DNA from: Oxalobacter sp. OttesenSCG-928-P03
GTDB lineage: Bacteria; Pseudomonadota; Gammaproteobacteria; Burkholderiales; Burkholderiaceae_D
DNA: 45,358 nt
Assembly: GCA_030269625.1 (NCBI GenBank)
Contig: JAJDFZ010000011.1
Location: forward strand, 1 to 45,358
Reading direction: 5' to 3'
A program made the position numbers and the translations under genes. This document shows positions 9,127 through 18,291 of the stretch, in pieces; within the stretch, counting starts at the first letter, position 1, and each line of letters begins with the position of its first letter. Below the pieces are notes generated by a model. That model did no database searches. It saw only the letters and a program-made list of their open reading frames with translations, and was not told the origin of the DNA.

Positions 9127-12100
9127 TCAGGCGTCTCCTCTCTTTGCGCCGCAATACGGGCAGAACGTGAAGCCGTCAGCAGGCAATGGCTTGCCGCAGG
9201 CCACGTTGGAACAGGTCGCCGGAACGACGCCCAGTTCAACAATAAGCTCACCTTCACGCACAGGGACCATCTGCTTGCTTTCGCTATAGTCGGCCGTTTT
9301 GAGAACGCGCTTGACCACACCATCCATCGGGGCAAGCACAGCTTTTTCCTGCTTCATGATGGCAACGTTGAACAGCTCGTCACCCTTGCGCACCATCTGG
9401 CCCGGGCTGACATAGGTCACCCACAGATCACCATTGCTTGGCGCGCCGACATGGTACGGGTTGTCCGGGTCAGCTTTGGCAATGTTCCCTTTTCCGGCTC
9501 CGCCGGCCTTGCCGACCTGCACTTCGGAACTCATGATTTCGGAGTCCAGCACGTAGCGGACAATAGACATGCCGCTTTCGTCCGGGTTGCGAATACTCAA
9601 AAGAGACAGGTGATGCGGCTTGCCCTGGCTATCGGTGAAGTTCAGTTCATCGCCCGGCTCCAGCCCTTCAAACCAGACGTCCAGCGGCAGGTTGTTGGGG
9701 TTGCCGTACTCCAGGCGGAAATCGAAGGTTCTGAGAGCATCCGCCGGATGGTTGAGATACAGCAGGAGTTCTTCCTGTGTCGGCTCGCGGTGCAGATGCT
9801 CATGCAGCGCTTCACGCTCTGCATCAAAATCGATTTCCGGCAGCGATTCCAGCGGTGAACGTTCGGTGCGCTTGGCTATCATTTTCCGCCAGTCTTCACC
9901 GAATGCACTCTGATACACCCAATCGGCAGGGAAACCGAGAGGCAGTTTGCCATATTCACCCAGCAGGAGGCCGCGGAAGGCATCGTTACAATCCTGATAG
10001 ATGGTCAGGCGCGCTTCTTTCATTTCCGGTGTGAGAGATTCCTCCGGATTGCTCGCCACGTGTTCCATGACTTCCAGCAGGGTCTGAACCGCGCCATCAC
10101 CACCCCGCCTGTAGGCGCCGGTCACGGCCAGGAAGGCGGTATTCCAGGTGATCTGGGAACCGGGTGTCACGTCATGATAGTGAACAATCTGGCGCGCGCC
10201 TGCGAGGAAACGCAACATCTGCGGCAGCAGGTGGATATAGCCCTGGTCAAAGGCGCCCTGCTGCGAAGAAGAAGTCGCGCCACCCGGCATGCCGTGGCTG
10301 ACCACGTCATAGTCGATGCCCTGGAAGTAGGGCGCAGTATAGCGATCGTAGTAAGGCATGATCTGCTTGAGCACGAAATTACACTCGCGGATCATTTGCT
10401 TGTTCAGGTTGGTCTTGAGACCCAGCTCTTCCAGGTAGGCGGCGGTGGAAAGAACTTCACCCTGCCCGTACCAGCGTGTTGCGGCACCGATGGAAGTGTC
10501 GATAATGTGGGCACCGGCTTTGGCTGCTTCAGCCACGGCCGGAACAAACAGGCCGTCCGTGAAGTGGCGATGATGATGCAACACCAGCTCTGGCCATTTC
10601 TTGCGCAGGGCGGTTACCAGGTCACGCATGAAATGCGGCGGGCAATTGCCGGCCATATCCTTCAGGCCGAGAATAATATTGCGGGATGCCTCGTTCAGAT
10701 CCACACCCAGAATCTGGGCTGTCTGATTCAGGATTTCTTCCGTCACACCGAGGTAGTGGTCCACGGTAAAGCCGCGTCCGTAGCTGAGGGAAAGTGACGG
10801 CTCGAAAATCACGCTTGGCGTATGCAGTACAACTTCGGCAAACGGCCGCATGTTTTCAATATGGTTCAAAAAGTCAAAGCTGCGGATGACATGGAATTCT
10901 TCACAGATTTTTTCTGCCGTGGCATGCATGAGATTGCGCGGCTGCGGCCGGTAACCGAGCACGTTGGTGGAGCGGATAAGAATCTGCTTCATGGTTTTGG
11001 GCGCAACCCGGTTCATTTCTGTTGCCTCAACAAAAGGCGAGGTCATGTTGGCCATCAGGTTGACGTGAAAATGCGCACCGCCGCCGGTTTCCAGAGAAAA
11101 GAAATTACAGTTGTCCAGGTACGGGGCGACAAGCCTGTCTTCAGCCAGACGGAAACGGTTACCGCTGTTGGACTGCGTATTGTCACGGGTCGTCGTGTCC
11201 GTGAAATGAACAAAGCCTGAATCACGAACATAGTCGAGCAGCGCTTTTCTGTCACCGCGCGGGTATGGGGAAGGCTCGTTACGAACTGCAGAACGGATAT
11301 ACGGCAGCACCGGCTCAAACTTGGGCATGCGCGGCGTGCCACGTGTCCTGTATTCACCAAGTTGCACAAAACGGTTGTAACCGTGGGCGGAAATATCCGC
11401 GATAAGACGGGCGCTGCGCTCTGACTCGCGGGCGGCGTCGGTATAGTCCATCAGGTCCGGATGACCCGCGATGAAGCGGGTATCGCACTCACCCTGACGG
11501 AACATCGGGTGTTTCAGTACCTGGCGGTAAAACGGAATGGTGGTCTTCACGCCGGCAACGGTATATTCGCTGAGCGCGCGATCCATGATGCCGAGCACCT
11601 TGTCCCACTCATGCGCATAAGTAATGAGCAGGGTACCAGCCGAATCGTAGTTGGACGGGAACTCGTAACCGGCACTCATGTTGGAGTCGATACGCACGCC
11701 GGGGCCGCCGGGAGAAACATAGCGGGTGATCAGGCCGGAATTGGGCGAAAAGCTTTTCTGCGGATCTTCACAGTTGATGCGCACCTGCATCGCATGGTGG
11801 TAGGGCTGGGTATTTTCATCGTTAAAACGCAGCTCGCTGCCAAAGGCAATGGCGATCTGTTCTTCGACAAGATCAATACCATAGCGGCATTCGGTAATGC
11901 CATGTTCCACCTGCAGGCGGGTGTTGACTTCAATAAGATAGGGCTGGCCTTCCGCTGTCACCAGGAATTCCACGGTTGCCAGTGAATAGTAGCCGACTGC
12001 CTTGACGAGCTTGCGAGAATATTCCTTCAGGGTTTCACGCAGCTCGGGAGTGATCATGACCCATGGCGATGGCGTGATTTCAACCAGCTTCTGGTTGTTG

Positions 12101-12840
12101 CGCTGCAGACTGCAGTCACGTTCGTCAAAGGCAAAGACATTGCCGTATTTGTCGGCAATCACCTGAATCTCGATATGGCGGACATGGGTGAGGAATTTTT
12201 CCACATACACGCGCGGGTTGCCGAAGGACGCCTGCGCCATGGTGGATGCCTTGAAAAAGGCATCTTCCAGTCCGGCTTCGTTATGCACTTCAAAAATGCC
12301 GCGGCCACCGCCACCGCCTTCTGCCTTGAGCATGATCGGAAAGCCGATCTCGGCGGCAACTTCGCGCGCCTTGGGCACGTCAACAGCGCCATCAGAACCC
12401 GGCACAACCGGAATATCCAGTGTTTTGGCAAGCGCACGAACCTGCACCTTGTTACCCAGAAGTTTCATGGGCTCCTGCTCGGCACCGATGAAAATCATTC
12501 CGGCTTCTTTACAGATTCGCGGGAAATTCTCGTCTTCGGAGGCAAATCCCCAGCCCGGGTGAATGGCTGCGATACCGCGCTGTTTGGCAAGGCGGACAAT
12601 TCGCTCCACATCCAGGTAGGCGCGCGGGTCTTCGCCAAGCAGCAGCAGTTCCTGCGCGGCCGAAGCGGCAGGAGCTGTCTTATCGACGTCCGTGGCGGTC
12701 ATCACGGCAACCGCATCGAAACTCTCACGGATAGAGCGGCAAATCCGCCGGGCCGGAATACCCCGGTTAGCCACCAGAATGGGCTTCCCCTGCAGTTCCT
12801 TTACCACTTGCTCAAACGTTTTTCTGGACGTGCTATTCAT
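9127..12840 (-). CDS. pyc: Pyruvate carboxylase, long form with C-terminal zinc ribbon
   Basis: Biotin-dependent enzyme expected to make oxaloacetate from pyruvate, bicarbonate and ATP; cytoplasmic. 1237 residues. Biotin carboxylase domain (about 15-490): ILVANRGIPARR, the ATP-grasp glycine loop AEGGGGGRG, and EVNTRLQVEHGITE. Carboxyltransferase domain (about 540-850): DTTTRDNTQS, LIRSTNVLGY, LGLKDMAGN with the metal-site lysine, and the H-x-H metal ligands in HHHRHFTDG. Biotin carrier domain (about 1110-1200): the biotinyl lysine in IMKQEK near residue 1165 instead of the common AMKM. A further tail has C1210, C1215, C1227 and C1230 (CX4C...CX2C), a probable zinc ribbon not found in ordinary pyruvate carboxylases. 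The acceptor-site loop also differs from the usual DTTFRDAHQS. AAGAGG lies upstream of the ATG. It follows the biotin ligase gene by 83 bases and ends in a strong terminator. Confidence 0.9.
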   Translation of the reverse strand: MNSTSRKTFEQVVKELQGKPILVANRGIPARRICRSIRESFDAVAVMTATDVDKTAPAASAAQELLLLGEDPRAYLDVERIVRLAKQRGIAAIHPGWGFASEDENFPRICKEAGMIFIGAEQEPMKLLGNKVQVRALAKTLDIPVVPGSDGAVDVPKAREVAAEIGFPIMLKAEGGGGGRGIFEVHNEAGLEDAFFKASTMAQASFGNPRVYVEKFLTHVRHIEIQVIADKYGNVFAFDERDCSLQRNNQKLVEITPSPWVMITPELRETLKEYSRKLVKAVGYYSLATVEFLVTAEGQPYLIEVNTRLQVEHGITECRYGIDLVEEQIAIAFGSELRFNDENTQPYHHAMQVRINCEDPQKSFSPNSGLITRYVSPGGPGVRIDSNMSAGYEFPSNYDSAGTLLITYAHEWDKVLGIMDRALSEYTVAGVKTTIPFYRQVLKHPMFRQGECDTRFIAGHPDLMDYTDAARESERSARLIADISAHGYNRFVQLGEYRTRGTPRMPKFEPVLPYIRSAVRNEPSPYPRGDRKALLDYVRDSGFVHFTDTTTRDNTQSNSGNRFRLAEDRLVAPYLDNCNFFSLETGGGAHFHVNLMANMTSPFVEATEMNRVAPKTMKQILIRSTNVLGYRPQPRNLMHATAEKICEEFHVIRSFDFLNHIENMRPFAEVVLHTPSVIFEPSLSLSYGRGFTVDHYLGVTEEILNQTAQILGVDLNEASRNIILGLKDMAGNCPPHFMRDLVTALRKKWPELVLHHHRHFTDGLFVPAVAEAAKAGAHIIDTSIGAATRWYGQGEVLSTAAYLEELGLKTNLNKQMIRECNFVLKQIMPYYDRYTAPYFQGIDYDVVSHGMPGGATSSSQQGAFDQGYIHLLPQMLRFLAGARQIVHYHDVTPGSQITWNTAFLAVTGAYRRGGDGAVQTLLEVMEHVASNPEESLTPEMKEARLTIYQDCNDAFRGLLLGEYGKLPLGFPADWVYQSAFGEDWRKMIAKRTERSPLESLPEIDFDAEREALHEHLHREPTQEELLLYLNHPADALRTFDFRLEYGNPNNLPLDVWFEGLEPGDELNFTDSQGKPHHLSLLSIRNPDESGMSIVRYVLDSEIMSSEVQVGKAGGAGKGNIAKADPDNPYHVGAPSNGDLWVTYVSPGQMVRKGDELFNVAIMKQEKAVLAPMDGVVKRVLKTADYSESKQMVPVREGELIVELGVVPATCSNVACGKPLPADGFTFCPYCGAKRGDA

Positions 12841-12923: not shown

Positions 12924-13859
12924 TCAGGCCCGAGCAAGGCTCCCGCTGAAGAGTTCGTGAACCCTTCCGTCGGAAGCCTGTAAAAGTAATCCTCCTGTGG
13001 GACTTACACCTCTCAGCCAGCCGCTGAGCGTGGTGCCGTTCGTGTCAGAAACGGTAACGGCTTCTCCCTTCCATGCAAGAAGCGGATCGGCCAGGTCGGG
13101 CAGCATATTTATTGCCGACCGGGCAAACGAGTGACTATACACTGAAATGACCTTTTTCACCAATACCTGCCAGAGAGAAAATGGCGAAAATGGCGAAGGG
13201 CTTCTATCCGAAGCCTGCAGGAGCCCGGCCGGTGCGGCATACTCCCGACGCAGTTGCTGCGCATCCGGCAGAATATGCAGATTGACCCCCACACCAGCCA
13301 GCAAAATGCCGTTTCTGTTTTCCAGCAAAATGCCGGCCGCCTTGGCCTGATCCGGATTCAACAGATCATTGGGCCACTTGAGCCTAAGCGGATAACCCAG
13401 GCGCTCAAACGCCGCTGCCAGCAGAATTCCCGTAACAAGCGCTGCCGCGTCGCTATGAAACAGCGGCTCATCCGGCAGACGAAATGTAACGTACAGATTG
13501 CCCCGTGGTGATTGCCATTGTCGGCCAAGCTGCCCCCTTCCCGCTGTCTGGCAGGCGGCCAGCACGGCACCCCATGCCGGCAATGCGCCTTTTTGTGCCA
13601 GGGCATGGCCAACCGCAAAGGTAGACGTCACTTCATCGCAAAAATAAACCGGCGCAGGCACATTGAAAAATGCCCTGGCCGCATCTTCAGAAGACGGGAT
13701 ATCCGGCCCCAGCAAGGCGTTCGTACCGAAAAGCACATCCGGAGAAAAAGGGGCTGCATGTTCACCCAGGCCTTCCGCCAGCACAAAACAACCGCCCTCC
13801 ACCGGTTTTTCCGGCAAGGATACAGACAAAAAACGGCTGGAAAAAGACGCGTTCGACAT
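12924..13859 (-). CDS. birA: Biotin-protein ligase
   Basis: Attaches biotin to the carrier lysine of carboxylases through biotinyl-AMP; cytoplasmic. 311 residues. GRGQLGRQW (107-115) is the biotin/ATP loop, and KWPNDL (161-166) is the conserved catalytic-lysine motif. ILLENRNGILLAGVGVNL follows, with a small C-terminal SH3-like domain (about 265-311). There is no N-terminal winged helix: the first 65 residues are not DNA-binding in appearance. This is therefore a monofunctional ligase and not a repressor. The gene lies 83 bases before pyruvate carboxylase on the same strand, and together they look like a ligase-substrate operon. A perfect hairpin (13896-13927) precedes the start. Confidence 0.92.
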   Translation of the reverse strand: MSNASFSSRFLSVSLPEKPVEGGCFVLAEGLGEHAAPFSPDVLFGTNALLGPDIPSSEDAARAFFNVPAPVYFCDEVTSTFAVGHALAQKGALPAWGAVLAACQTAGRGQLGRQWQSPRGNLYVTFRLPDEPLFHSDAAALVTGILLAAAFERLGYPLRLKWPNDLLNPDQAKAAGILLENRNGILLAGVGVNLHILPDAQQLRREYAAPAGLLQASDRSPSPFSPFSLWQVLVKKVISVYSHSFARSAINMLPDLADPLLAWKGEAVTVSDTNGTTLSGWLRGVSPTGGLLLQASDGRVHELFSGSLARA

Positions 13860-14165: not shown

Positions 14166-14205
14166 TATACACAAAATATTTCCACATGGAAATATTTTGT
14201 GTATA
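14166..14205. promoter_or_regulatory. 40-bp perfect palindrome, probable operator of the HTH gene
   Basis: Two 18-base arms (14166-14183 and 14188-14205) match exactly around ACAT. The sequence is AT-rich, with TTTCC/GGAAA next to the centre. It lies 35 bases before the start of the helix-turn-helix gene. It overlaps a possible -10 hexamer TATACT (14202-14207) and follows TTGACT (14151-14156). Autoregulation by the encoded protein is the simplest reading. A cruciform or a 5' UTR hairpin is also possible. Confidence 0.7.
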
Positions 14206-14239
14206 CTGGAAGAAACAAAACCGGCTTGAAGGAGCAAGC

Positions 14240-14527
14240 ATGAAAACGAGTTATTTCAAACCCCGAACAAAAAAAGGCTATAACCCGAACCGCCTTCTGG
14301 ATGCCCTGCTCGTCCGTCAGAATATGAAAACCGATGCCGAGCTGGCCAGGGCACTGAAAATCAACCCCAGTGTTATCAGCAAAATCAGGCATGCGAAAAC
14401 ACGGATCAGCGCATCACTGCTTCTGGACATGCACGACATGACGGATATGAGTATTCGGGAACTTCGAAATCTCATGGGAGATACGAAAAACAAGTATTTC
14501 CCGTTCAGGCAGACAAAGCTCAGCTAA
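14240..14527 (+). CDS. Small helix-turn-helix DNA-binding protein
   Basis: 95 residues. The ATG at 14240 follows GAAGGAG by 5 bases; the upstream in-frame start at 14186 lies inside the palindrome and is rejected. The core TDAELARALKINPSVISKIR is a helix-turn-helix of the lambda repressor/XRE type. A basic N-terminus (KPRTKKGYNPNRLL) and a short C-terminal tail of aromatic and basic residues flank it. There is no ligand or peptidase domain, so this is a minimal regulator, perhaps dimerising by its C-terminal helix (LLLDMHDMTDMSIRELRNL). It stands alone between divergent birA and convergent porin genes and has its own palindromic promoter region. Solitary Cro/C.-type regulators of this size are common in mobile or restriction-modification contexts, but I see no partner genes. 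Confidence 0.8.
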   Translation: MKTSYFKPRTKKGYNPNRLLDALLVRQNMKTDAELARALKINPSVISKIRHAKTRISASLLLDMHDMTDMSIRELRNLMGDTKNKYFPFRQTKLS

Positions 14528-14549: not shown

Positions 14550-14590
14550 CCCAATCCGGGCGGCAGCATGTCACTGCCGCCCGGATTGGG
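14550..14590. terminator. Perfect 17-bp hairpin across the porin stop codon
   Basis: Arms 14550-14566 and 14574-14590 are exact complements around CATGTCA. The stem is GC-rich, as in intrinsic terminators, but neither strand has a T tract. It lies between the convergent HTH gene and the porin gene. The right arm encodes the last six or so porin residues and the stop falls in the loop. This suggests that the coding frame has run on into a terminator-like element. Confidence 0.6.
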
Positions 14591-16055
14591 CAACATCAAA
14601 GGACGTCGACCAGCTGATGACAACCTTGATGTCATCCCGCCCCTGCTTGCCATAACCATTGATGTAAAAGTCGCGCGTTCTCAGGCGGGCAGGATACACC
14701 CCGAAGGTCACCCCCTTGAACATGCCCTCGGGTACAGCGTACTGGATTCCGCCATTGAATTCCCAGGCTTTGCCGCGGGTTTCTCGCCCGGGGACCCGCA
14801 TGTCCCAGCCATAATTGATGTGTCCGCTGAGGCTCAGTCCGGGCAGGCCGATCAGCTTGCCGATCTCATGGCCGATACCGATCTCGATCACTTTCTGCCC
14901 ATCCCATACAAAGTCATCAAGCTGCGCCCAGGTCTGGATAAAGTTGCGGTTGTCACTGTTGGCCCACGCGGTCATCCGGAAGTTCATCTCACCGGAATCA
15001 GGCGAATGCGTCTGCCCGTAGGCGCCAAAAAAATACCAGTTGCCGGTTCTGAGTTCTGCGGATGCACTGTAGTGGTATTCATTTTTCGGGTCGGTAAGCC
15101 CGGTTGATTCGGTCAGGTATTTTCCCCAGAGCGCATAGGTGGTTAATATCAAATCGCCGACATCGGGAATCTTGGCAGGATAGTAAGAGGCAAACTGCGC
15201 ATTGCGGCGATAGTCCTTGCCCTCGCCCACACCGACATCAATAAAGGCTTTCTTGCCCGGGCCAAACATATAGCGTCCGCCAATACTGTGTATATGATCG
15301 ACTTCCGGCGCGGCATCCTGGTATGAGCCGCGATTCTGGTGCCAGGCGGTTGTCATCTTCCGGTATTTGTAATCCCATTCATTATGGAAGCGGTCAGCCC
15401 AGCCATACCCCAGCCAGAAATCCCCCAAAAGTGCCTTTGTCTCAAAGCCGCGATATGAGTGCGGATGCAGACCTCCCAGCGTACCCAGTGTACCGATCCG
15501 GATCGGGAGATAACCGCCTCGGAATTCGAGGCCTGTCTCCGGTGTTCCCAGTTTCAGCTTGAGCGCCGCCTCACCGATATTGAAATTGCTCCGGTCGGTA
15601 TCCTTGTCGACGTCATGAGTCAGCACCTCCGACCAGCCATTGCCCCGGCCCAGGTTGGTATTCAGTCGCATGTCAAAACCAACTGTATCCCAGGCATAGC
15701 CGGAAACGAAACTGATACCGGTGCCAAAGGCGTTGACGTGAATCTGGTTGTTTTTGTCATCGGAAGTACGCGCCCGCCCGTAGTAGGTAAACTGCGAGGT
15801 CAGCTTGCTCTTGTTCCAGAAATCCGCGCCGGTACTGGCTGCGGAAACGACATCCGCGATATCGTATTCCGGCTGGTAATAATCCGCCTGCGGATTGGTG
15901 GTACTGGTCATCGACCCGTCCTGGTAATAGGCATACGGCCCCATTCCCCATGACTGGGCGTAAAGCGTAACGGGCATCACCAGAAAGAGCGCCAGCATCC
16001 CAAGGCAGCGCACACGGGTTATGGGCAACAGGCGGTGAAGACTGAGAACAGTCAT
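14571..16055 (-). CDS. OprD/ChiP-type outer-membrane porin
   Basis: Outer-membrane beta-barrel channel of the OprD family, 494 residues. The ATG at 16055 is chosen because the longer frame back to 16271 overlaps the EIIC-EAL gene. The signal peptide runs to about VTLYA at residue 33. The mature protein shows repeated amphipathic strands ending in aromatic residues, with family-like segments NKSKLTSQFTYYGRARTSDD, YKYRKMTTAWHQNRGSY and DFWLGYGWADRFHNEWDY. OprD relatives pass basic amino acids, small carboxylates or chitin oligosaccharides; the substrate is not predictable here. It starts 19 bases after the EIIC-EAL stop, so it is the second gene of that operon. The C-terminus is odd: the last strand ends ISWSTSF, a proper beta-signal with terminal Phe, but eight more residues follow inside a hairpin. 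A one-base loss at the stop would explain this. Confidence 0.87.
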   Translation of the reverse strand: MTVLSLHRLLPITRVRCLGMLALFLVMPVTLYAQSWGMGPYAYYQDGSMTSTTNPQADYYQPEYDIADVVSAASTGADFWNKSKLTSQFTYYGRARTSDDKNNQIHVNAFGTGISFVSGYAWDTVGFDMRLNTNLGRGNGWSEVLTHDVDKDTDRSNFNIGEAALKLKLGTPETGLEFRGGYLPIRIGTLGTLGGLHPHSYRGFETKALLGDFWLGYGWADRFHNEWDYKYRKMTTAWHQNRGSYQDAAPEVDHIHSIGGRYMFGPGKKAFIDVGVGEGKDYRRNAQFASYYPAKIPDVGDLILTTYALWGKYLTESTGLTDPKNEYHYSASAELRTGNWYFFGAYGQTHSPDSGEMNFRMTAWANSDNRNFIQTWAQLDDFVWDGQKVIEIGIGHEIGKLIGLPGLSLSGHINYGWDMRVPGRETRGKAWEFNGGIQYAVPEGMFKGVTFGVYPARLRTRDFYINGYGKQGRDDIKVVISWSTSFDVAQSGRQ

Positions 16056-16074
16056 GAGATTATTCGTTCTGATT

Positions 16075-18291
16075 TCATGAAGCAATCGCAGCCAGTTGCT
16101 TCGCGGTATTCCCGTTGAGATCTGCCGTGCCATAAGCCTTCTGGGGCTGGCTGATAAAGGCAAAAGCCTCTTCGGCGCGCAGCGGCGGGCTATAGAAATA
16201 GCCCTGGACGTTGTGACAGCCGAGCGAACGCAGCTTGAGCAACTGTGGTTCGTTATCGACAAATTCGGCAATCAGTTCGATATTCAGCGAACGGCAGAGT
16301 TCGGCGATGGTAGCGACAATTTCGCTGCTGCTGCGACTGGCCAGGACATCACGGCTCAACATGCTGTCCACCTTCAGGCTGGCAACGGAGAAGCGTTTCA
16401 GGTAGGTCAGCGAACTGTGGCCCATACCGAAATCGTCAATCGCCAGGCGGATGTTGTATTCGTTCAAACGTGCCAGCACACCGCTTTGTGCCATGTGTGT
16501 CGTCAGGGCGATAGATTCGGTCACCTCCAGTTTGAGGTTTTCTACCGGAAGTGCATGCCGCTGGATAATTTCAAGTATTTTTTCCGGCAATTCAGGGTCT
16601 TCCAGCTGTTTCGCGGAAACGTTCACGGACATGACCAGGTCTGTCAGGCCCGCCTTTCGCCATTCCGCCGCCTGGCGAACAGACTCTTCAAGCACCCACA
16701 GGCCAAGCGGAAGAATGTAACCCGTATCTTCCGAAATGGTAATAAAGAGTGGCGGCGGTATCCTGCCAATTGTCGGATGATGCCAGCGAGCCAGGCTTTC
16801 CACACCGTAAACCCTGCCCGTATCGCTGTCTACCTGCGGCTGGTATTCCACATACAGCTCTTTTCTGTCCACTGCCTGCCTGAGATCATTGGCCAGATTG
16901 TAGGCCATCAGGCCAACCGCCCCCGGGCGGTTGAGCAGGCGCTGGCCCGGTGTAACCGTGCTTTCCTCAAGTGCGAGGTTCAAGAGCTTGCGGAAGTTTT
17001 GATGAAACTGGCTGGTCTTGATGCGGTCATCCAGTACGACAAAAGGCAGGTAGATGGCGACGCCAACCAGCAGGTTGATCAGTTGCAGCACAATGGCACT
17101 GACAGAACCCGTGGACAGGTAGGCATTCACAAAAAGTGGAATATTCCAGGCCACATCATGCACGGTCATGGGGACAATACCGAACATGCACGCATAATAG
17201 GAGATGATCGTGTTGACGATTGGCACCAGGATAAAGGGTGCGATAAAAACGGGGTTCAGAACGATCGGCAGACCAAAGAGCAGGATTTCGTTGATATTAA
17301 AAAGGGACGGAATGATCGAAATCTTGGCGATTTTGCGGACACCGTTATCCCGATGACGCAGTAAAAGCGCGATCAGGAGCGCACTGGTCGAACCGGCTCC
17401 GCCAATGGAGGTGTAGCAGTCAAAAAAGGGTTTGGTCAGGATATAGAGCGGCTCAAGCCCTGCCCTGAAGTTTTCGATATTGACCAGGCTTGCCGGAATA
17501 TACAGTTCCCGCATGACAGGTTCCAGCACATTGGAGCCATGAATGCCGAAGAACCACAGGAAATGACGGACAAAGCCATACAGAACCGCTGTGCCCAGAT
17601 AGTGCCCCCCCAGCGCATGGAAGGGCATCGAAAGAAGCCGGTAGGTCGTTTCATGCAGGTCGGCAATCCCAAGGACTTTTGTCAGGGCCTTGAAACCGGC
17701 AAAAAAGAGAATCGTGATAACGGCCGGAAACAGGGTATTCATCACCTGCGTCATGGATGCTGCCGAACTGCCGGTATAAAAATTCACCCGAAGCTTGGGA
17801 AAACGCAGGAGAAAGCGAAAAAGAAGCCAGGAAAGAATGGCTGTCACGATAGACAGCAAAAGCCCGTATACCCCCATCCACTGCAGGGGCAATGCCGTGT
17901 TGTTGTTAATGGGTTCCAGTATGCAGAAGACACTGCTGAAAACCACAAGCGCAACGACCACCGGTGAAACGCGGTCAAGCGGGTTCCGCTCATTGTAGTT
18001 TTCCGAGAGACTGTAACCGATCGTCGGGATCATGAAAACGGACATGATGCCGAAAGTACCGGTATAGATGTACTGTCCGAACAGTTTCCAGTTATCCCCG
18101 AAAAGGGAATGCATGAAATCCTGGTAGGACGCCAGCGGGAAGGAATTGACCAGGATGGCAATGGTTCCTGCCAGGATAATAGGCATGGTCAGCGCCAACC
18201 CGTCTCTTACCGCGACGAGATAGGGCGTTTCTATCCAGGCGGTAAGCCACTGGACAAGCAAATTTTTACGGGAAGACTTCATCGCCTCCAC
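16075..18291 (-). CDS. PTS EIIC transporter domain fused to an EAL cyclic-di-GMP phosphodiesterase
   Basis: 738-residue inner-membrane fusion. Residues about 15-430 form a PTS EIIC domain of the lactose/cellobiose class with about ten hydrophobic segments; GGAGSTSALLIALLLRHR and FNINEILLFGLPIVLNP are characteristic. Residues about 470-715 form an EAL domain whose catalytic set looks complete: E498 (ESLARW), N557 (VNVSAKQL), the LEVTES glutamates near 589-592, DD at 619-620 (IDDFGMG), K640, E676 and QGY at 696. The usual EGVE is EFVD, so the second glutamate is aspartate. No EIIA or EIIB domain is present, so the EIIC part is probably a ligand sensor rather than a phosphorylating transporter. 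A GTG start at 18291 has AAGGGG upstream; an ATG at 18282 is possible. The porin gene follows 19 bases later. Confidence 0.9.
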   Translation of the reverse strand: MEAMKSSRKNLLVQWLTAWIETPYLVAVRDGLALTMPIILAGTIAILVNSFPLASYQDFMHSLFGDNWKLFGQYIYTGTFGIMSVFMIPTIGYSLSENYNERNPLDRVSPVVVALVVFSSVFCILEPINNNTALPLQWMGVYGLLLSIVTAILSWLLFRFLLRFPKLRVNFYTGSSAASMTQVMNTLFPAVITILFFAGFKALTKVLGIADLHETTYRLLSMPFHALGGHYLGTAVLYGFVRHFLWFFGIHGSNVLEPVMRELYIPASLVNIENFRAGLEPLYILTKPFFDCYTSIGGAGSTSALLIALLLRHRDNGVRKIAKISIIPSLFNINEILLFGLPIVLNPVFIAPFILVPIVNTIISYYACMFGIVPMTVHDVAWNIPLFVNAYLSTGSVSAIVLQLINLLVGVAIYLPFVVLDDRIKTSQFHQNFRKLLNLALEESTVTPGQRLLNRPGAVGLMAYNLANDLRQAVDRKELYVEYQPQVDSDTGRVYGVESLARWHHPTIGRIPPPLFITISEDTGYILPLGLWVLEESVRQAAEWRKAGLTDLVMSVNVSAKQLEDPELPEKILEIIQRHALPVENLKLEVTESIALTTHMAQSGVLARLNEYNIRLAIDDFGMGHSSLTYLKRFSVASLKVDSMLSRDVLASRSSSEIVATIAELCRSLNIELIAEFVDNEPQLLKLRSLGCHNVQGYFYSPPLRAEEAFAFISQPQKAYGTADLNGNTAKQLAAIAS

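Follow-up and report, generated by a model that had tools for sequence, protein, structure and literature searches.

EAL phosphodiesterases generally work as dimers, and the ligands of most enzymes of cyclic-di-GMP (c-di-GMP) turnover are, to our knowledge, unknown. Some signalling proteins take their input through a transport domain, as in CbrA, a transporter-derived sensor kinase which, so far as we know, is not paired with a porin. The membrane domain of the phosphotransferase system (PTS), PTS_EIIC, has already been recorded in c-di-GMP proteins, the EIIC-EAL architecture included, in the excerpted text of a review (PMC8846402), and our literature searches of open-licence papers found no functional study of EIIC-EAL. 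A permease for comparison is ChbC, in which His250 and Glu334 coordinate the sugar, chitobiose, according to an excerpt of PMC11393339; PMC7329351 lists the Bacillus cereus protein (bcChbC) among dimers.

An EIIC-EAL fusion with a conserved sugar site

The window analyzed here comprises 45,358 nucleotides (positions 1-45,358 of contig JAJDFZ010000011.1) from Oxalobacter sp. OttesenSCG-928-P03. An open reading frame on its minus strand (16075..18282) encodes an EIIC-EAL fusion of 735 residues, for which ATG 18282 is a likelier start than the alternative GTG 18291 (738 residues), with the stop end at 16075. A sequence-only reading of this DNA had proposed that a lactose/cellobiose-class EIIC lacking EIIA and EIIB is joined to an EAL domain. 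Each element of that proposal was borne out: Pfam assigned PTS_EIIC (E 3e-30) and EAL (E 2e-66) and found no EIIA or EIIB domain within the protein, and the EIIC scored 293 bits with the family model TIGR00410 (lactose/cellobiose EIIC), above its cut-off of 236. By Pfam and NCBIfam the EIIC domain, of the lactose/cellobiose/chitobiose class, spans approximately residues 18-427 (17002..18231, minus strand), and by Pfam the EAL domain spans approximately residues 465-700 (16183..16890, minus strand). The last EIIC helix (residues 394-439; 16966..17103, minus strand) is unbroken in the AlphaFold model m3aa6726f4d4f and is the predicted signalling link to EAL. Both Pfam domains were present in 120 of 120 database matches listed, the window's own among them. 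A whole-class search of 369 genomes recovered the full-length protein only in its own genome, other matches listed being EAL-only; at most three candidates were scored per genome, with matches to E ~1e-82, and an overlooked case is therefore unlikely, if possible. Scans for promoters (6 found, 4.2 expected) and terminators (10 found, 5.5 expected) were near chance.

ChbC was the best PDB sequence match of the EIIC (3qnq, B. cereus; 34% identity over 404 aligned residues) and the top fold match of the EIIC-EAL model by E-value, with a poor superposition on 3qnq (rmsd 11.0 Å, TM 0.52 by target length). Alignment to 3qnq places His248 (17539..17541, minus strand) and Glu332 (17287..17289, minus strand) at the sugar-coordinating ChbC His250 and Glu334 (PMC11393339), and Trp243, His248 and Glu332 are kept in all 131 EIIC-EAL sequences, the window's included, and in all 64 sequences in which EIIC is fused to a kinase. 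The fusions do not share a second feature of PTS permeases. The cytoplasmic TM4-TM5 loop (residues 160-178; 17749..17805, minus strand), so named by analogy with glucose permease in the PMC11393339 excerpt, lacks by sequence comparison a P..VP motif that we defined in the present comparison, without a published definition. The motif occurs in 15 of 15 distinct EIICs of our PTS set, as well as in ChbC 3qnq, and in none of the 131 EIIC-EAL or 64 EIIC-kinase sequences (0/195 together). The PTS set was sampled with no motif filter, eight of ten fetched stretches yielding a lac-type EIIC and two none (a motif-filtered version kept four of the ten), and one member that duplicates a C. difficile sequence (L123) was counted once. 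Two lone Enterococcus EIICs with no adjacent EIIB or EIIA (L116 and L119), kept apart as neither PTS-set nor fused, both retain P..VP, indicating that motif loss does not follow from standing alone by itself. We infer that the loop serves EIIB. Two further candidate signatures were rejected: the NE-P position after Glu332, considered as a second diagnostic, is M in ChbC 3qnq and keeps P in 6 of 64 kinases, and Gln400, considered as fusion-specific, is matched by Gln in ChbC too.

The EAL domain appears catalytically intact, as the sequence-only reading had supposed. The active residue occupies all eight positions expected for catalysis (E498, N557, E589, D619, D620, K640, E676 and Q696 in the 738-residue numbering). 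Across 116 sequences (115 relatives and the window's protein, with 4 of 120 proteins dropped by length) these positions are invariant except D620, which is E in one. An M in DDFGMGH and an F or Y replacing the G before V-E/D are each typical of the family (114/116 in both cases). The window's own genome holds 22 GGDEF and 12 EAL matches. By motif scan, with Pfam on four of these, a GGDEF gene lies within about 1.5 kb of EIIC-EAL at 6 of the best 80 of 556 relatives (L021, L024, L031, L032, L034 and L067), too few to build on.

In spirochaetes, a histidine kinase takes the place of EAL in the EIIC fusion, giving a HisKA-HATPase-receiver output. The EIIC-kinase clade (support 95) is nested inside the EIIC-EAL tree, and the fusions split from PTS EIICs with a support of 99 in an EIIC tree built without loci missing most of EIIC. 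Such a swap of EAL for a kinase output is as expected of a receptor, and the kinase fusions lend independent support to the earlier suggestion that EIIC acts here as a membrane receptor input.

An OprD-family porin beside the fusion

The gene downstream on the minus strand (14571..16055) encodes an OprD-family outer-membrane porin of 494 residues. Although its listed frame opens at TTG 16271, a signal-peptide-like stretch follows ATG 16055 by eye, and the gene was set at 14571-16055 on that basis. The resulting spacer to EIIC-EAL is 19 bp (16056..16074, minus strand), the gap that had been read from the sequence. OprD membership follows from PF03573 (E 1e-14, 54.7 bits, cut-off 25) and from the OprD-type barrel in the porin model, whose best fold matches are the chitoporins 7vu2 and 7vtz. 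The earlier description of the porin as ChiP-type fits most pair porins well: 18 full-length partner porins of a second subfamily, the Z type, show 33-38% identity to E. coli ChiP (E down to 3e-87) and are clear ChiP kin. It fits the window's porin more weakly, with 24% identity to ChiP (E 4e-11) alongside the chitoporin folds. Porins of the window's type were found in 1 of 369 genomes in the whole-class search. One porin, P0139, is named 'Chitoporin' by its source, which is a label and not a test.

Retention of the neighborhood was assessed in the best 80 of 556 relatives. A porin lies directly beside EIIC-EAL at 20 of these 80 loci, so the arrangement is kept in relatives as the sequence-only reading would have it. 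Nineteen of the porins are directly downstream on the same strand and one is divergent, and at 8 of these 19 loci the EIIC-EAL stop shares a 4-bp overlap with a possible start codon of the porin. The two unlike porin subfamilies are both paired with EIIC-EAL, and the other flanks of 15 loci mostly differ by eye, near relatives excepted. No porin adjoins the fusion at the remaining 60 of the 80 loci, five of which have downstream sequence shorter than 1 kb. While many of these are Firmicutes, outer-membrane bacteria are also represented (seven Synergistaceae, one Synergistales, Desulfobulbus, Chromatiaceae, Trinickia and L018, in the Zoogloeaceae group), indicating that the fusion can do without the porin.

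Seventeen pair genomes were searched further: the window's and those of 16 of the 20 pair loci (all but L023, L053, L026 and L029). Among the 28 genomes chosen by us for the OprD search, exactly one Pfam OprD match occurs in 14 of the 17 pair genomes, one of these (G386) under the curated cut-off, and in 14 of 14 the match adjoins EIIC-EAL. The other three lack a Pfam OprD match, and a locus HMM detects their adjacent porin. In two pair-less genomes (those of L047 and L057) an OprD gene lies elsewhere. A porin tree, built without short rows and L029, disagrees with the EIIC tree on L053.

A proposed two-membrane sensor and its alternatives

The sequence-only reading held that a matching EIIB and EIIA would speak against a receptor. 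Within the limits of Pfam sensitivity and genome completeness, lac-type EIIA was found in 0 of 17 pair genomes and stand-alone EIIB in none; EIIB was absent altogether from 15, and in the other two it occurs as long frames, at least one in each fused to another EIIC. No other EIIC scored above the cut-off in 15 of 17, and one more, IIB-fused, did so in the same two. The EIIB and EIIA searches covered 46 of the 80 loci (L023 and L053 left out) and the window's genome, which is 62% complete; the 16 related pair genomes agree with it in showing no matching EIIB or EIIA. ChbB and ChbA near the C. difficile EIIC-EAL (L060) were rejected as PTS partners, as they adjoin a separate EIIC (14579-15880) in an inspection that drew on 79 of the 120 EIIC-EAL rows (P0002-P0080) and all 72 porin rows. 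The gene between that EIIC and EIIC-EAL appears to be RlmH.

We consider it probable that EIIC-EAL, with no PTS partner found, is an inner-membrane receptor in which a chitooligosaccharide-type ligand arriving via the porin alters the predicted phosphodiesterase activity, and the fusion and porin together are likely to form a two-membrane sugar sensor. Judging from porin family and fold, a sugar of about disaccharide size would cross the outer membrane via the porin, the likeliest candidates being chitobiose and other beta-1,4 oligosaccharides. The sugar would then bind the EIIC site bearing the ChbC-type His and Glu. As neither a stand-alone EIIB nor a lac-type EIIA turned up in the 17 pair genomes searched, and the EIIC has no P..VP loop motif, the bound sugar would not be phosphorylated by any EIIB. 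Elevator-type movement of the EIIC dimer could instead be passed through the long last helix to switch the EAL domains, so that c-di-GMP would fall or stop falling and the cell would become more, or less, inclined to swim freely. We weakly favor the direction in which sugar activates the phosphodiesterase. The spirochaete fusions would use this receptor domain to control the histidine kinase and receiver.

The identity of the ligand is the point at which this reading is most open to a competitor. It is rather unlikely, though worth weighing, that the receptor answers to cellobiose or a similar plant-type sugar, or to an unrelated small solute, with the porin being a general one. TIGR00410 covers lactose and cellobiose EIICs, and the window's porin is no close ChiP orthologue. 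Neither GH18 nor GH20 was matched in any of the 17 pair genomes, from which the sugar may be a cue and not food; the same result would fit equally well with a ligand that does not come from chitin. Against this stand ChbC as the best PDB match of EIIC, the clear ChiP kinship of the Z-type partners, and the chitoporin folds of the window's porin. The missing GH18 and GH20 matches bear in another way on a reversal of flow, in which c-di-GMP binding or hydrolysis by EAL would gate EIIC as a facilitated sugar channel without phosphorylation. While the retained sugar-site residues and a porin suited to uptake agree with this, the genomes lack these two families for using chitobiose, and the spirochaete EIIC carries a kinase and receiver, which are outputs; we regard it as improbable.

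Whether EIIC instead reads the state of the PTS turns on the loop and the missing partners. A non-cognate phospho-EIIB or phospho-HPr would then act on EIIC and report PEP supply, and HPr was indeed matched in 25 of the 28 genomes that we chose for the HPr and EIIC searches, including 16 of the 17 pair genomes, leaving some room for PTS input via an unrecognized EIIB. PTS_EIIC is called a phosphoreceiver domain in the review excerpt (PMC8846402), and V. cholerae links the PTS to a phosphodiesterase through PdeS and EIIA-Glc (PMC6877527, excerpt). The absence of P..VP from every fusion sequence, together with that of lac IIA and stand-alone IIB from the pair genomes, makes such a reader distinctly improbable. 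That the two genes adjoin by chance or hitch-hiking and are unrelated in function is very unlikely. The 60 of the best 80 of 556 relatives with no such neighbor speak for it, but two unlike subfamilies are paired, the sole OprD match is the adjoining one in 14 of 14 genomes, and the surrounding flanks mostly differ.

A broader form of the receptor reading is put forward tentatively, as we hold it somewhat more doubtful than not: an ancient, widespread receptor family derived from PTS permeases may pair a chitooligosaccharide-sensing EIIC with swappable EAL or PAS-kinase-receiver outputs, and may, in several Gram-negative lineages, have acquired a dedicated chitoporin on two or more occasions, from different subfamilies, as a private outer-membrane signal line and not for food. 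On the receptor reading, transport machinery cut off from its phosphate supply would have been turned into a receptor, and a channel of the outer membrane would have been retained for sensing. Many holders carry gut-associated isolate names, from which we presume their habitat; in a gut setting, fragments of chitin would tell the cell something useful about its surroundings. With an input domain that has a solved-structure relative and a porin that hints at the ligand class, the signal can be guessed and is testable at once.

Relation to known systems

The window's EIIC resembles PTS EIICs (TIGR00410; ChbC, 3qnq) in its family score, the sugar-site His and Glu, the Trp243/Trp379 positions and 34% identity, and it differs in being fused to EAL with no EIIB or EIIA found, in lacking P..VP, and in falling into an EIIC-EAL clade of its own together with the kinase fusions. 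Like other EAL phosphodiesterases (PF00563; BifA EAL 8arv, MucR 5m1t) the fusion has a full domain with all catalytic residues; unlike them it has the M in DDFGMGH and the F/Y substitution, and its membrane part is a permease domain. The Z-type porins share 33-38% identity with E. coli ChiP of the OprD family, and the window's model shares the chitoporin folds (7vtz, 7vu2), whereas the window's porin reaches no more than 24% identity with ChiP and is encoded beside a signalling protein. With CbrA the fusion shares a transport domain as signalling input, CbrA being derived from another transporter superfamily. In Vibrio cholerae EIIA-Glc/PdeS, as described in an excerpt of PMC6877527, a PTS protein likewise lets sugar supply control a c-di-GMP phosphodiesterase; there a soluble EIIA acts with a separate phosphodiesterase, whereas here no phosphate donor was found and the permease lies within the phosphodiesterase itself.

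The EIIC–EAL fusion and the search for its PTS partners

The fusion gene (16075–18282, minus strand) encodes a single protein of 735 residues, in which a PTS EIIC domain comes first and an EAL domain forms the C-terminal part. It passes the curated TIGR00410 cut-off, bearing out the sequence-only reading, which had placed the EIIC in the lactose/cellobiose class. Its best solved sequence relative is the B. cereus diacetylchitobiose EIIC ChbC (3qnq; 34% identical across 404 aligned positions). AlphaFold models the fusion with good predicted quality (mean pLDDT 85.5, pTM 0.78, alignment of 31 rows); in the model, residues 394–439 form the last EIIC helix without a break, and a second helix (454–470), separated from the first by a short loose stretch, enters the EAL domain. 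A fold search with this model also ranked 3qnq first by E-value, and the superposition is poor (rmsd 11.0 Å, TM 0.52 by target length), perhaps owing to differing states.

The EAL domain, previously described as apparently intact, indeed carries the active residue at all eight catalytic positions described in the EAL literature. These positions are invariant across 116 EAL sequences (window included), with the sole exception of one E for D620, and the window's domain looks active. The M of DDFGMGH and an F or Y, not G, preceding V-E/D each occur in 114 of the 116, unlike the EAL domains compared.

PTS_IIB and lac-type PTS_IIA were searched in 47 genomes: the one holding the window, plus the genomes behind 46 of 80 loci that stand for the best 80 of 556 relatives. 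They were matched in 17 and 3, respectively. A separate set of 17 of the 47 is defined by holding an EIIC–EAL gene adjoining an OprD-family porin gene (pair genomes: the window's and those of loci L016, L017, L020, L021, L022, L024, L025, L027, L030, L032, L033, L034, L035, L044, L058 and L064). Lac-type PTS_IIA was absent from all 17, and PTS_IIB was found only in those of L033 and L058, in long frames, at least one of which in each genome also contains a second EIIC. The EIIC–EAL protein is the sole EIIC above cut-off in 15 of the 17. At 62% completeness, the window's genome lends little weight to absences seen in it alone, and the case that no phosphate donor is encoded is carried by the agreement of the other pair genomes; a complete matching PTS, named earlier as a refuting finding, did not turn up in these 17. 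Of the PTS genes suggested for checking, HPr, which is expected of a regulatory PTS, is present in 16 of 17 pair genomes.

A conserved sugar site and two output domains

Window His248 and Glu332 align with His250 and Glu334 of ChbC (3qnq), which an excerpt of PMC11393339 describes as coordinating the ligand. Both residues are kept in 131 of 131 EIIC–EAL (window included) and 64 of 64 EIIC–kinase sequences. The loop after TM4 (in the glucose permease, the cytoplasmic TM4–TM5 loop according to the same paper) contains P..VP in 3qnq and in all 15 distinct lac-type EIICs from PTS settings (mostly Firmicutes, including related sequences that are not independent), and in none of the 131 EIIC–EAL or 64 EIIC–kinase sequences. 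Since the motif is retained in two Enterococcus EIICs that have neither EIIA nor EIIB beside them, its loss tracks fusion and not standing alone. These two are plasmid-borne (L116:510–2736 and L119:544–2739), each downstream of a gene annotated PEP phosphonomutase. We infer that P..VP would serve EIIB; these residues suggest a fused EIIC that has retained the sugar site and, it seems, lost its PTS coupling.

In five spirochaete loci (L062:8429–11392, L063:2735–5860, L065, L066:908–3982 and L079:4712–7777), Pfam finds HisKA after the EIIC, with HATPase and receiver domains in four (the L065 frame ends early) and PAS in three; such proteins frequently carry the source name 'PTS transporter subunit EIIC'. 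Among the 120 of 225 matches listed in a search with one EIIC–kinase, kinase fusions dominate the top and EIIC–EAL proteins come next, at no more than 62% identity in the EIIC part (61% for one named Synergistaceae). A tree of 119 EIICs, made by a quick method with SH-aLRT support only and long branches present, places 11 PTS-type EIICs on one side (support 99) and all 108 fusions on the other, with the 18 EIIC–kinases as a single clade (support 95) within EIIC–EAL. Because EAL was swapped for a kinase while the sugar site was kept, the EIIC appears to be behaving as a sensor. The same swap is what we rank as the strongest argument against a reverse flow, in which EAL and c-di-GMP would gate the EIIC and which we regard as improbable. 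The EIIC–kinases look like an undescribed family of sugar-sensing hybrid kinases.

The adjoining porin

As previously noted, the next gene, 19 bp away, encodes an OprD-family porin (14571–16055, minus strand). Porins lying anywhere within the flanking DNA, which reaches at most 10 kb per side, were used to build an HMM for searching the loci. Among the best 80 of 556 relatives, all 20 matches directly adjoin EIIC–EAL, 19 downstream on the same strand and one divergent (L058); eight of the same-strand loci have a candidate porin start codon that gives a 4-bp overlap with the EIIC–EAL stop. Holders comprise 16 of 17 Zoogloeaceae, Azoarcus, Accumulibacter or other betaproteobacterial loci, 2 of 3 Desulfovibrio, one Campylobacterota and 1 of 2 Planctomycetaceae. 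The suggested check of whether an OprD-type gene stays next door thus found it in these 20; no such neighbour shows in the other 60, several of which have an outer membrane (for five of the 60, <1 kb of downstream sequence was covered). Fourteen of the 17 pair genomes contain exactly one OprD match, always the neighbour of EIIC–EAL (one below the curated cut-off), and the remaining three give no Pfam OprD match; an OprD gene lies elsewhere in 2 of 11 genomes without the pair (those of L047 and L057). Eight porin and eight EIIC–EAL database matches agree exactly in the length of their longest contig (79 EIIC–EAL versus 72 porin rows compared); P0003/P0123 and P0004/P0125, close relatives of the window's pair, are among them. 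Remaining flanking genes are, by eye, mostly unlike across 15 loci, save where the loci are closely related (L017/L027 and L024/L034, for example). On these grounds we take the porin to belong with EIIC–EAL; the 60 relatives without such a neighbour count against this.

Pair porins form two groups far apart in a tree built by a quick method, with a program warning about long outgroup branches: the window's W-type and the Z-type of most other pair loci. Pairing thus arose twice or changed its porin, and either points to a functional link. The proposed ChiP kinship applies well to the Z-type (33–38% identity to E. coli ChiP across 18 full-length members, HMM E 2.5e-113); it is less secure for the window's W-type porin, at 24% identity (HMM E 6e-32). 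The model of this porin (pLDDT 83.9) best matches chitoporins 7vu2 (E 7e-31) and 7vtz (E 2.5e-28), with Occ porins below (E 6e-23). The nearest genus-named W-type relatives are OprD porins of Paludibacterium, Collimonas and Chromobacterium, the first labelled Chitoporin by a source.

Several other features were noted. L019, a deltaproteobacterial EIIC–EAL within the porin-bearing clade, has at the porin's place a 310-residue frame without Pfam match (L019:3667–4599) that overlaps the EIIC–EAL stop by 4 bp. In the window, a perfect 17-bp hairpin with a 7-base loop (14550–14590, by eye) spans the stop codon of the porin gene, where two genes converge, and lacks a T run. A perfect inverted repeat (14166–14205; arms of 19 bases, spacer of 2) lies where a small Cro/CI-type HTH gene (14186–14527, weak HigA match) begins and is probably its operator. 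A pyruvate carboxylase gene (9127–12840, C-terminal zinc ribbon weakly predicted) adjoins a biotin ligase gene (12924–13859).

Ligand and relation to known systems

GH18 and GH20 matches are absent from all 17 pair genomes; if the ligand is a chitin fragment, it may therefore serve as a cue rather than food. The genes, their residues, the missing motif, the lack of partners in the genomes searched, the conserved neighbour and the two outputs with their tree are direct observations; the identity of the ligand, its passage via the porin, allosteric coupling and the sign of the effect are what we infer. In the window's genome, GGDEF is matched 22 times and EAL 12 times. GGDEF genes near EIIC–EAL or the pair (L024:6769–8685, L034:6808–8754, L032:5045–6997, L031:12367–13317 and L021:5689–6984; four recognised by Pfam, L032 by its motif alone) are a possible opposing cyclase.

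Searches of open-licence literature found no functional work on EIIC–EAL, its porin or the EIIC–kinases. The architecture itself is already known, as an excerpt of the review PMC8846402 names PTS_EIIC among the rare phosphoreceiver domains of c-di-GMP proteins. A PTS-to-PDE link is likewise known in V. cholerae, where it runs via EIIA-Glc (PMC6877527); we call EIIC–EAL a member of the transporter-derived receptors.
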